This document shows positions 40,254-44,506 of a stretch of 64,000 bases of DNA, piece by piece. Each line of letters opens with the position of its first letter. Position 1 is the stretch's first letter. The position numbers were made by a program, and so were the translations under genes. Under the pieces are notes generated by a model. The model was not told the DNA's origin. It did not search any database and saw only the letters and a list, made by a program, of their open reading frames with translations. Source of the DNA: Candidatus Hydrogenedentes bacterium ADurb.Bin170 (GTDB lineage: Bacteria > Hydrogenedentota > Hydrogenedentia > Hydrogenedentales > CAITNO01); NCBI GenBank assembly GCA_002070275.1, contig MWCY01000006.1:1-64000 (forward strand), written 5' to 3'.

Positions 40254-40903
40254 ACTTCGAAAAAGAGGCCGGGCACTTTCAGATACTCAAAGAGCACGCT
40301 TTTGTTTCTGCCAATGACCCGTACCAGCCGCAGGTTATTGAATTCATCTCCTTCCCGTGCCTGAACCCGGTCGATTTTCCCTGTGAAATAATCGGTCAGC
40401 TCGAGGAAGACGGTCAGCTGTTTTGTTTCCAGGTCATCCATAAAACCCTTGACGGATACCATAGGCTTCTGAAGCATGGTGGTAGCCTGAGCCCCGGCGC
40501 GTTTCAGATAGGCACTGTTCACTTCCAGCAGGTTGGAGGCTTCGATACAGATCAGCACAAGGCGATACCGCTCTTGAGCCGATGCCTGTCGCGCCAAGTC
40601 CTGAAGCTCGTACCCCAGATCGCGGAGTACTTCTTTCCCGTACTGATTGTCGCCATAGGTCACAATGGCATGCTGCAGCGCCAGCAACACCTGTTGCCGC
40701 TCCGCTTCCGATATCCCCGGACCGCCTGGCTGCATCGTCTTCCGCAAAGGTTCGATTGCCGGTCTGATCAGAGCCTGTGCCTCTTCTTTGTTTTTCGGGC
40801 CTGCTGTCTCCTGGGCAGGCGGCGGCGGAGTTTTTTTCAAAAAGTCCGAACAGCCGAAAAGTACCAGCAGAAGGGGAAGTGTAAGCAGAAGTTTTCTGAT
40901 CAT
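40235..40903 (-). CDS. Lipoprotein of unknown function
   Basis: 222 residues with signal peptide and lipobox LFGC, then a Pro-rich spacer (KKTPPPPAQE). The rest is mainly helical (ERQQVLLALQHAIVTYGDNQYGKEVLRDL) with a C-terminal beta-rich part (GDEFNNLRLVRVIGRNKSVLFEYL). I recognise no family. Its ATG overlaps the stop of the ThiF-like gene (ATGA), and its own stop overlaps the convergent methyltransferase by 19 bases. It is the last gene of the six-gene reverse operon. Confidence 0.7.
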   Translation of the reverse strand: MIRKLLLTLPLLLVLFGCSDFLKKTPPPPAQETAGPKNKEEAQALIRPAIEPLRKTMQPGGPGISEAERQQVLLALQHAIVTYGDNQYGKEVLRDLGYELQDLARQASAQERYRLVLICIEASNLLEVNSAYLKRAGAQATTMLQKPMVSVKGFMDDLETKQLTVFLELTDYFTGKIDRVQAREGDEFNNLRLVRVIGRNKSVLFEYLKVPGLFFEVQSFAP

Positions 40904-41805
40904 TCCGTATCGTTCCTGATGTCTGTAGGATTGTTTATTATATCAGTTCTGATGGTGCCGTGGCTTGTCTGCACTTCCTGAGTGTCCACATCACACCGGA
41001 GCCCCAGCAAAAAACGCAGGATGGCATTTGCCTGATGGTGCGCCACAATGCCGACGCGGGGCGCCATAAGCCCCTGTCCCGGTCTGGCATCGGTAATGCC
41101 GTCACCGCAGCAGATCAGCGTCCGGCTGAGCTGCCGGGTAACGATAAGATTGGACGGGGCGTAGCCTGCCATGCCGGAACCGGTTACCACAGGAATAGGC
41201 GGGTCGGCGGAAAGCGCCGCTTCCACAAGCATGGCTTTTTCTGCTGCTTTGTCAAAGGCTTCCGCCAGAACATGCACTTCTTTGAAAAGAGCGGCAGTAT
41301 TGTCTTTTGTGAGTTTTACTGCATGAAGGGTGCAGCGGATGGATGGATGAATGCGTTTCAGTGTCTCGTGAAGCGCCTCAGTTTTCAGCATGCCCAGCTG
41401 CTCAACAAAGTATTGCTGTCTGTTCAGATTGCTCGGTTCGACTACATCATAATCCGCCAGAATGAGGCTGCCTATGCCGCTGCGTGCCAGGGCAATCGCG
41501 ATGGAAGAGCCCAGCCCGCCCAGCCCTGCAATGCCGACACAGGCCTGTCGTAGTATGGCGTGTACTCCGGGGGAGTGGCGTGCCGCCATAAGACTTTCAA
41601 GTTCTTCGGGCGCCGGAAAGGCACCGCGCCGGATCAGCACCACGGCGTCCCCCTCTTCCAGATGCCGGTCGCTGTCGGCAGGGTGCCCGTTTACAACCAG
41701 CACGTCCGCATCGGGATAAAGTGCATCCCGTAAGGCATAGAGTGAAGTGCCCCTGGTTATCTGCCGGGAATGCTCGTTGACTGTGATTGTGAGGGAAGGG
41801 ATCAT
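40900..41805 (-). CDS. ThiS-ThiF-like fusion (E1-like activating enzyme)
   Basis: 301 residues. Residues 1-62 resemble a ThiS/MoaD ubiquitin-fold domain (LTITVNEHSRQITRGTSLYA, DVLVVNGHP, EEGDAVVLIRRGAFP) but lack a free C-terminal Gly-Gly because the chain continues. Residues 75-301 are an E1-like ThiF domain with nucleotide loop GLGGLGSSIA, the arginine finger-type NLNRQQY and ending GLMAPRVGIVAHHQAN, close to the family-2 ThiF proteins of thiamine synthesis. The paired zinc cysteines of MoeB are absent. It may adenylate a separate sulfur carrier. It lies between the M28-like and lipoprotein genes; the thiazole genes thiG/thiH are not in the window. Confidence 0.75.
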   Translation of the reverse strand: MIPSLTITVNEHSRQITRGTSLYALRDALYPDADVLVVNGHPADSDRHLEEGDAVVLIRRGAFPAPEELESLMAARHSPGVHAILRQACVGIAGLGGLGSSIAIALARSGIGSLILADYDVVEPSNLNRQQYFVEQLGMLKTEALHETLKRIHPSIRCTLHAVKLTKDNTAALFKEVHVLAEAFDKAAEKAMLVEAALSADPPIPVVTGSGMAGYAPSNLIVTRQLSRTLICCGDGITDARPGQGLMAPRVGIVAHHQANAILRFLLGLRCDVDTQEVQTSHGTIRTDIINNPTDIRNDTE

Positions 41806-41842: not shown

Positions 41843-43021
41843 TTAGGGTTCCGCGCAAGCGTTCATCGGGTCGGTTGTTGCTGCGATAACATCTCTTGCC
41901 AGTGCTTCTGCCAGATCAGCGGCGGCGCGGACTCTCTCAACACTGATATTATCCACTATATCCTGCTGCGCCGCATAATTTACGGGGCGGTTATTCTGAT
42001 CCAGCCCCAGAATGGAAATGGCATTGAACCCCTGAAGCAGCGGAAGGTGGGCGTTGGTTATTCTGGAGGACAGATGTACTTTTCTTGCCTGATACGGAGG
42101 GGCGCATCGGACAGCCGCTTCCACCAGATCTCGGGAACAGGGCAGCTGCTGTAGAACACCTTCTGAGTCGGTATAACATAGTTCTCCGGCACCCACGCCT
42201 TCGAGATTAATCATCAGCACCCGATCATAGCAGACTTTCAGAGTGGGCAGCACTTCCTGCATGACCCGTCTGCTTCCGTGATGTGCTCCGGGAAAAAAGA
42301 AAAGAAGGGCGGCACCGTGAAGCTCTTTTTCCCGGAATTTTTCGGCGATATGAAGCAGCGCTGCCATACCGGAGGCATTGTGATTGGCACCAACGGTGTC
42401 CCGGTTGAAATATCCGCCCGCCAGCATGGCGGTCATAACCAGAGGGAAAAATACCAGAGCTGCGGAATAGAAAAAACGCGTAAAAGGATAGGTGGCGTGA
42501 TGCAGAGAAGCAAAGGCATCCAGGGCGCAGGCGGCAAGAAGCAGCACCATGGCAAACTGAATCAGCAGAAGAAAATACCGGGAAATACGCAGGAAAAAGG
42601 GACGCTGTGTCCAGCAGTCGCAGCTGTCGAGATAGGCTGTAAAGACAAGCAGTGTTTTGAAATCGGCGTGCTTTCTGTCGCCGAAAACAGCACAGCTTGA
42701 AGTGCCCGGAAAGTAGCGCGAGACCAGAGGGAACCCGAAAGATTCCGCCTGATAAAGAGAAAAAACGATAAGACCGTAAATGAAGGAGATGGCAGGCCAC
42801 CAGAATGCCAGAGCGGCGATAACGGTAAATTCTCCGAGGAAAACAAAGGGAAACAGGGAAGAGAAGAGGGGGATTTTGAAAAACATCACTACCGCACGAT
42901 CAACGAGCGGTTTAAGTCTGCCCAGTATATAATCGGCTGCCTGCTTTTCTCCGGAGCTGCCAAAGCGGCGATGCGCCCGTGCCGTTGCGAGGTGTTCGAT
43001 ATCGTCTTTGATCTGATCCAT
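41843..43021 (-). CDS. Membrane M28-peptidase-fold protein with all zinc ligands replaced
   Basis: 392 residues. The fold of M28 aminopeptidases is recognisable by the order of its motifs, but membrane helices (about 55-95 and 145-205) are inserted. The zinc positions differ from the family: HxD is AYLD (Tyr130), GxNDNASG is GANHNASG (His214), the EE pair is HH (247-248), NLD is NLEG (Glu274), and the final His is Ala350 in NYAAQQDIVDNI. It is therefore unlikely to be a normal aminopeptidase. The new His, His-His and Glu residues could bind another metal, or the fold may only bind peptides. It sits 15 bases after the radical SAM gene. Confidence 0.75.
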   Translation of the reverse strand: MDQIKDDIEHLATARAHRRFGSSGEKQAADYILGRLKPLVDRAVVMFFKIPLFSSLFPFVFLGEFTVIAALAFWWPAISFIYGLIVFSLYQAESFGFPLVSRYFPGTSSCAVFGDRKHADFKTLLVFTAYLDSCDCWTQRPFFLRISRYFLLLIQFAMVLLLAACALDAFASLHHATYPFTRFFYSAALVFFPLVMTAMLAGGYFNRDTVGANHNASGMAALLHIAEKFREKELHGAALLFFFPGAHHGSRRVMQEVLPTLKVCYDRVLMINLEGVGAGELCYTDSEGVLQQLPCSRDLVEAAVRCAPPYQARKVHLSSRITNAHLPLLQGFNAISILGLDQNNRPVNYAAQQDIVDNISVERVRAAADLAEALARDVIAATTDPMNACAEP

Positions 43022-43036
43022 GGTGGCGAAGCATTT

Positions 43037-44506
43037 CTAAGCGCTGTTTCCGGTGAGAAAAGGAAGACGGTCACGGCGACCTTTGAACCGTCTGAAGTCC
43101 TTTTCAATCACGGCGGAAACCGTTGATTTCCGGTCCGGCAGGCAGGCACACAAAAAAGTATGCAGATGTTCCGCCATTTTAACAAGCGGAATGCCGTATG
43201 TCTTCCCTTCCTGTTCCCATATCTGTTCTGTCAGTGCTTCAAAGACATGAAAAGGGGACGGAGGCAGCTGCCGGAGCAGTGCCAGACTTTCAGGGAAGTT
43301 GCCGTGATTATGAAGCAAGTCAAAATATTTTGCGAAACGCTTCATTCGCTGAAGGGCATCAAAGGAGTAATGCTCATTCTGAAGCAGTTCATAAGGAGGG
43401 TTTGTGTCGTAGACTGTGTCCGGGCTGCTCAATGCGCCCAACGGCGTGCCTGGCAGATTTTTCAGGAGTCCCAGCTGCAGTTCCTGCACGTCAAGGGCAA
43501 CCAGCCGGTTGAACCCTTCGGCGAAAGAATCAATGCTTTCTCCGGGCAGACCGAAAATGAGATCGGCGTGCAGCTGGCAGCCCGTGTGCGTCCGAAGCCA
43601 ATGCAGATTCTCCAGCGAAGGCTCTATGCGCTGGTAGCGGCGGATGGCTTTCTGTATATCCGGATTGACACTTTGAACACCTGTTTCCAGATGCAGGGCA
43701 TCGTGAGGAAAAGAAGCAAGCAGCGCGAGGGTGTCTGGCGGGAGATGATCCGGCATAATCTCGAAATGAAGGTGAAGCTGTTCAATCTCCGGCCGCTCTC
43801 TGAAAAAACGGAGTATGGTATGCATCCGGTTGAGATCGACGTTAAACGTGCGGTCAATAAATTTGAAGCGCCGTGCGCCCCGATCCAGCAGCCTGCTCAT
43901 GGAATGCAGAAAGGCATGAAGCGGGAAATAGCGGAGACCGGGGAAGGCGCCGGAAAGGCAGAATGCGCAGCGGCGCGGGCAGCCCCGGGATGCTTCCACA
44001 TAAATAACTCTATGGGCAATATCCTGTTCCGTATAGAGGGGATAGGGATCTGCCAGAAGGGAAAGATCGGGTGGCGAGGCATCGATAATCTTGTCTGGCG
44101 GAACCTGTCCCTGCAAAAGAGTGTGCACGAGGGTGAGAAAAGCCTCTTCACCCTCGCCACGGATGATGTAGTCGGCAAAGGGCGCAACAGGAGAGCGCGC
44201 CGGGTCGCCGGTCATTTCCGGGCCGCCGCAGACCAATACGGTTTCAGGGCTGACGGCGCGGATGACAGCGGCAACGGCAGTGGCGATTTCGATATTCCAG
44301 ATGTACAGGCTCAGCCCGACCAGCCGGGGCTTTCGCGCAAGAATGGCTTCCGCAATTTCGTGAGCGGACTGCTGCAGGGTGAATTCGAGGAGCTGTGTGT
44401 TTTCCTGGTAACACCCCAGATGCGCCTGCAGCCGTCGCAGCCCGAAAGCAACATGGGCATAGCGTGCATTGATAGCGGCAAGCACTATGGATCCGGAGTG
44501 CGTCAA
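43037..44506 (-). CDS. B12-binding-domain radical SAM protein (DUF4080-like)
   Basis: 489 residues. An N-terminal cobalamin-binding domain (residues 5-130; LVGLSLYIWNIEIA, VLVCGGPEMTG) precedes a radical SAM core with CxxxCxxC at Cys176, Cys180 and Cys183 (SRGCPRRCAFC). A DUF4080-like C-terminal region follows. Such proteins often methylate or rearrange unactivated carbons, but the substrate here is unknown. The start is a TTG at 44506, three bases after the lipoprotein stop; a GTG seven codons later is possible. It lies in the operon with the M28-like and ThiF-like genes. Confidence 0.88.
   Translation of the reverse strand: MTHSGSIVLAAINARYAHVAFGLRRLQAHLGCYQENTQLLEFTLQQSAHEIAEAILARKPRLVGLSLYIWNIEIATAVAAVIRAVSPETVLVCGGPEMTGDPARSPVAPFADYIIRGEGEEAFLTLVHTLLQGQVPPDKIIDASPPDLSLLADPYPLYTEQDIAHRVIYVEASRGCPRRCAFCLSGAFPGLRYFPLHAFLHSMSRLLDRGARRFKFIDRTFNVDLNRMHTILRFFRERPEIEQLHLHFEIMPDHLPPDTLALLASFPHDALHLETGVQSVNPDIQKAIRRYQRIEPSLENLHWLRTHTGCQLHADLIFGLPGESIDSFAEGFNRLVALDVQELQLGLLKNLPGTPLGALSSPDTVYDTNPPYELLQNEHYSFDALQRMKRFAKYFDLLHNHGNFPESLALLRQLPPSPFHVFEALTEQIWEQEGKTYGIPLVKMAEHLHTFLCACLPDRKSTVSAVIEKDFRRFKGRRDRLPFLTGNSA

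Follow-up and report, generated by a model that had tools for sequence, protein, structure and literature searches.

Contig 6 of a Candidatus Hydrogenedentota metagenome-assembled genome encodes a 392-residue protein in which a sequence-only reading recognised an M28 peptidase fold, broken by inserted membrane helices and with every zinc ligand substituted. The question raised by this locus is what such a fold does once its metal site has been altered. That reading left two answers: either catalysis is lost, or the substituted residues make up a different metal site. We addressed this by placing the protein among its orthologues, its intact paralogues and related proteins from another phylum. 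The window (the whole stretch of DNA that was analysed, 64,000 nucleotides) contains the features listed in Table 1.

Table 1. Features of the pseudopeptidase locus, by position in the window
Feature	Position	Strand	Details
ThiF adenylyltransferase with fused N-terminal ThiS-like ubiquitin-fold domain, downstream	40900..41805	(-)	Pfam/NCBIfam
M28-fold membrane pseudopeptidase	41843..43021	(-)	392 aa; PF04389 22.2 bits; AlphaFold pLDDT 82.1, pTM 0.82; PDB fold matches
Ala350, at last His ligand position	41972..41974	(-)	ortholog alignment
Glu274, at Asp/Glu ligand position, conservative	42200..42202	(-)	orthologues E33 D13, n=53
His247-His248, at general-base Glu and ligand Glu positions	42278..42283	(-)	ortholog alignment
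His214, at bridging Asp position	42380..42382	(-)	orthologues N14 D12 H6 G5 F5 and others, n=53
Second inserted membrane hairpin, residues 141-204 (helices 141-174, 179-204)	42410..42601	(-)	AlphaFold
Tyr130, at M28 His ligand position	42632..42634	(-)	orthologues H29 Y14 N7 R2 G1, n=53
First inserted membrane hairpin, residues 53-94 (helices 53-71, 76-94)	42740..42865	(-)	AlphaFold
Tyr82-Gly83, second membrane helix, clade-specific	42773..42778	(-)	Y52/52, G51/52
Glu64, acid in middle of first membrane helix, clade-specific	42830..42832	(-)	E50 D2, 52 orthologues
B12-binding radical SAM protein with C-terminal DUF4080, upstream	43037..44506	(-)	Pfam/NCBIfam

An M28 fold broken by membrane hairpins

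Peptidase_M28 was the sole Pfam match to the protein, covering residues 209-373 and exceeding the curated cut-off of 21.3 bits by a narrow margin; NCBIfam gave no match. A single-sequence phmmer search of the PDB returned a chance match only. Scanning for related loci with this protein alone gave none, and a 36-row alignment proved too diverse. Related proteins, including intact membrane M28 proteins, were detected by profile search. The AlphaFold model was built from 13 sequences and consists of an alpha/beta domain broken by helical hairpins. The best 50 Foldseek matches in the PDB are all either M28 aminopeptidases or glutaminyl cyclases, which are related to them; one is 1cp7, with a TM score of 0.75 by target and an rmsd of 3.1 Å. 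Pfam, the model, the PDB fold matches and the profile alignment described below all bear out the M28 fold, and the model places the membrane hairpins within it.

Compared with M28 zinc aminopeptidases such as the Streptomyces griseus enzyme, Bacillus subtilis YwaD and the Aeromonas/Vibrio leucyl aminopeptidase, the protein has the same fold, the same motif order and the same ligand-adjacent residues. Unlike them, it has non-canonical residues at the general base and at four of the five metal-ligand positions, two inserted membrane hairpins and no evident signal peptide. Lys and Arg are somewhat more frequent per residue in the domain-side flanks of the hairpins than in their far loops. This weak charge bias and the lack of an evident signal peptide suggest that the soluble domain is probably cytoplasmic.

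Degeneration of the zinc site across orthologues

The metal positions had been assigned by eye to Tyr130, His214, His247/His248, Glu274 and Ala350, and this numbering is right. D132, N215, A216, G218, G245 and G277 do not vary among 53 orthologues and D354 hardly does; D132 and D354 are also present in all intact relatives sampled. Because each site has such invariant or near-invariant neighbours, the register is secure. In a profile alignment to YwaD (1.5e-12), the zinc motifs likewise line up with the corresponding residues of the family. It had been allowed that the true ligands might lie elsewhere or that there might be no M28 similarity at all; the anchors, the YwaD profile and the paralogues, which align in register, contradict this.

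In the Aeromonas enzyme, E151 is the general base and E152 is a metal ligand. We take position 247 to be the equivalent general-base Glu site, and not a ligand, and position 248 to be the ligand. Counting the canonical set as H, D, E, E, D/E and H, the window protein retains one of six residues (Glu274) and no orthologue retains more than four. Glu is absent from position 247 in all 53 orthologues (H30 K14 N5 S3 Q1), and His occurs at position 350 in one of the 53 (L015), where Asn is found in 20 of 47 and Gly, Gln, Asp and others also occur. Position 248 is most often Glu (E32 H5 Q5 F3 and others). Position 130 is His in every intact relative sampled, and position 214 is Asp in 14/14 intact Actinomycetota and 9/9 paralogue rows sampled. 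The window protein thus has neither the general-base Glu nor the five di-zinc ligands, and the full set occurs in no orthologue. A last His relocated two residues upstream, to residue 348, was considered and rejected: this residue is His in part of the family and Asn in the window protein and several relatives.

These counts confirm that the canonical zinc site is gone and narrow the claim that every ligand is substituted. The claim stands for positions 130, 214, 248 and 350. It does not stand for position 247, which is the general base, or for Glu274, which is acceptable: position 274 is Glu or Asp in 46/53 orthologues, and Glu is also found in the intact paralogue of the same genome (LETLRD) and in 4/9 paralogue-clade and 2/14 intact Actinomycetota sequences sampled. 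The change from Asp to Glu, which had been read as meaningful, is therefore a conservative one seen in intact enzymes as well. Since the degeneration is family-wide, it is not a matter of chance or of local error. These alignments strongly support loss of zinc catalysis and make the zinc-dependent M28 peptidase mechanism very unlikely; weak metal binding may persist in the Hydrogenedentota orthologues that keep four of the six positions.

Could the substituted residues form a new site? In such a site, His214, His247, His248 and Glu274 would bind one metal through three His and one carboxylate and support a new reaction. All four residues occur together with Tyr130 in the window protein and in two relatives (L002 and L004), every member of the window's subclade has His247, Glu274 and Tyr130, and the Aeromonas aminopeptidase tolerates His at the general-base position. 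However, two of the closest orthologues, L005 and L006, have Asn instead of His214 and Phe instead of His248, a third, L003, has the same Phe, and both positions vary widely across the phylum. The most conserved columns of the 53-orthologue alignment contain no other invariant His, and clade-specific conservation sits instead in the membrane helices (see below). The homologue comparison proposed in the sequence-only reading therefore gives a split result: His247 is kept in 30/53 orthologues and an acid at 274 in most, but His214 is variable. We rejected the three-His one-Glu site, which is limited to a few close relatives, and consider a new metal site unlikely. Between lost catalysis and a new site, the balance thus falls mainly on the side of lost zinc catalysis.

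Also, the protein could still act as a peptidase or amidase in the M28 pocket, either without metal or with a single, weakly bound ion, and perhaps with His247 as the base. The frequency of His247 is a point against a pseudopeptidase, the fold is kept, and the pocket neighbours D132, N215 and D354 are invariant or nearly so. The title of Bzymek 2005, as cited in PMC4320195, describes the Aeromonas aminopeptidase with His at the general base (E151H, PDB 2anp) as functional. E151H, however, alters the base alone, whereas the window protein lacks ligands as well. Loss of one His ligand cripples the related ArgE, lowering the rate about 380-fold with cobalt and leaving no detectable activity with zinc (PMC4320195). 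The pocket is also too variable among orthologues for one conserved chemistry, and we regard retained hydrolysis as improbable.

Retention in the phylum and apparent order of loss

An orthologue is present in 57 of the 68 genomes of the window's class, and 60 of the 68 contain a profile match when paralogues are counted. On trees the orthologues form one clade apart from the paralogues (SH-aLRT 89 and 99). Thirteen pairs gave dN/dS values of 0.06-0.19, several of the pairs being saturated at synonymous sites; these values reflect purifying selection and so indicate that the gene is not decaying. The weak Pfam score might suggest a decaying gene, or an alignment artefact with the true ligands elsewhere, but with dN/dS well below 1, invariant anchors, the YwaD alignment and paralogues in register this explanation is extremely improbable. 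Because M28 homology is combined with loss of the essential residues in a conserved lineage under purifying selection, the protein is best read as a pseudopeptidase.

Of the 25 sequences in the intact paralogue clade, 24 have the complete set of six; the other has Lys at the general base. In L089 (G016:C33:5219-7525), an otherwise intact paralogue, the motif reads GSKEAG, with the base Glu changed to Lys as in a pseudopeptidase subclade. The window's genome has one intact paralogue (L061:838-2070). A regulatory relationship, in which the pseudopeptidase acts as heterodimer partner or substrate decoy of the intact membrane paralogue, would fit the fold and membrane insertions common to both and their co-occurrence in about half of the genomes. 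A pseudopeptidase review (PMC11266112) says that such proteins may regulate active cousins and does not mention M28. Against this, about 29 genomes, several of them 95-100% complete, have the pseudopeptidase with no detected intact paralogue; in the window's genome the two genes lie on different contigs, and no linkage was seen in the loci compared. We therefore set aside the intact paralogue as a partner and give this explanation little credence.

In the Actinomycetota, intact polytopic membrane M28 relatives (L129-L137, L145) occur alongside another degenerate set, with Candidatus Solincola among its carriers. In members of this set (L084:9887-11143, L125, L138-L152) the base Glu is replaced by Ser, Gly or Ala and the last His by Arg. 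Separately, some Actinomycetota ORFs of about 600-1,700 residues (L156, G264:C8:186731-191734, G210, G339, G359 and others) match the profile in two parts, 1-230 and 231-380, often thousands of bases apart, apparently through a very large insertion. The unconstrained tree suggested two independent losses, one in each phylum, which we did not adopt: a tree with a single degenerate clade is not rejected (AU p 0.90) and has a higher score, and the two sets may share one loss.

Within the Hydrogenedentota, the general base and the last His were apparently the first to go, since no orthologue has the former and hardly any the latter, whereas the other positions vary. In a large subclade, part of which retains His130, Asp214, Glu248 and Asp274, the Lys that stands at position 247 might take over from zinc in neutralising the acidic pocket.

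The neighbouring genes offer no clue to function. In the window, the B12 radical SAM gene lies 15 bases upstream of the pseudopeptidase gene and the ThiS-ThiF gene 37 bases downstream, all on the same strand. The former is kept in L105, L106, L107 and L109, the latter in the window's subclade, and the order radical SAM, pseudopeptidase, ThiF recurs in several members of the window's family. In other families the gene often precedes a phosphomannomutase-like (PMM/PGM) gene and adjoins Fmt-like and DTD-like genes; these three names were read from the sequences and not from a family search. Eight loci yielded no neighbourhood, and antisense ORFs kept in some GC-rich loci masked the window's own radical SAM gene. 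Among the conserved neighbours (PMM/PGM, Fmt, DTD, B12 radical SAM and ThiF) none is a peptidase-linked partner. Assigning a function from the neighbourhood was abandoned, the neighbours being housekeeping genes that differ between subclades.

A proposed membrane role for the pseudopeptidase

Positions conserved specifically in the pseudopeptidase clade fall mainly in the membrane. At thresholds of 85%/15%, seven of eight such positions (64, 65, 68, 82, 83, 90 and 158) are in membrane helices, to which 26% of the columns belong. The hypergeometric p is 0.00045, and over the thresholds tried p ranged from 0.00007 to 0.017; none of these values allows for relatedness, and the enrichment is a post hoc observation. 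The first hairpin holds E64, F65, V/I68, Y82, G83 and Y90. Position 64 is mostly hydrophobic in paralogues and Actinomycetota relatives, and other residues predominate there at positions 82-83.

Our preferred explanation, to which we assign a probability of roughly 60%, is that the protein is a non-catalytic M28-fold pseudopeptidase kept as a membrane-embedded binding or scaffold protein. Its ancestor would already have had this polytopic membrane architecture, together with a complete di-zinc site. Parsimony on the tree suggests that the general-base Glu and the last His were lost before the Hydrogenedentota family diversified; the remaining ligand positions would then have drifted separately in each lineage, with the gene under purifying selection throughout. 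In the present-day protein, the M28-fold domain, probably metal-free, would be anchored by the two hairpins, probably on the cytoplasmic side, and the old peptide pocket, the domain surface or both would bind a partner. The hairpins, with their mid-membrane acid and invariant Tyr, may dock to another membrane protein or to lipid. A variant we hold to be possible but doubtful is that the hydrolytic di-zinc site was traded for a function centred on Glu64 and Tyr82-Gly83 in the membrane, with the degenerate M28 domain serving as a sensor or substrate-binding module.

The closest architectural counterparts are intact polytopic membrane M28 proteins (L061:838-2070 of the window's genome; L129-L137 and others in Actinomycetota), which have the same length, fold region and hydrophobic insertion sites. 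They differ in keeping His, Asp, Glu-Glu, Asp/Glu and His and in lacking Glu64 and Tyr82-Gly83. For a role after loss of catalysis, nicalin and the transferrin receptor, as non-catalytic proteins, offer the analogy that fits best. The family profile matches the nicalin structure 7tm3 (E 4.8e-5), and ordinary M28 enzymes are at least as close. Nicalin is a membrane translocon subunit (in the BOS complex of the ER multipass translocon) with TMEM147 and NOMO as partners in human cells (PMC9630114). It too has an M28-fold domain in a membrane protein, and a non-enzymatic partner role may be drawn from it by analogy; its architecture differs, and the likeness is one of fold and profile. The transferrin receptor and CA_C2195/DUF4910 are non-peptidase M28 homologues, and CA_C2195, in which both the Asp and the Glu of the active site are missing, nevertheless binds one zinc and has other domains (PMC4000134). 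Both resemble the window protein in having an M28-related fold with essential residues replaced; in contrast to CA_C2195, the window protein has no match to the DUF4910 Pfam model.

The Hydrogenedentota protein is a bacterial polytopic membrane M28 pseudopeptidase, present in most genomes of one phylum and often beside an intact paralogue in the same genome. The well-known M28-fold pseudopeptidases, such as the transferrin receptor and nicalin, are mainly animal. For this clade, an automatic annotation as "M28 family peptidase" would be misleading. The graded series of ligand losses, together with the shift of conservation into the membrane helices, makes the role of a peptidase fold after loss of its metal testable.
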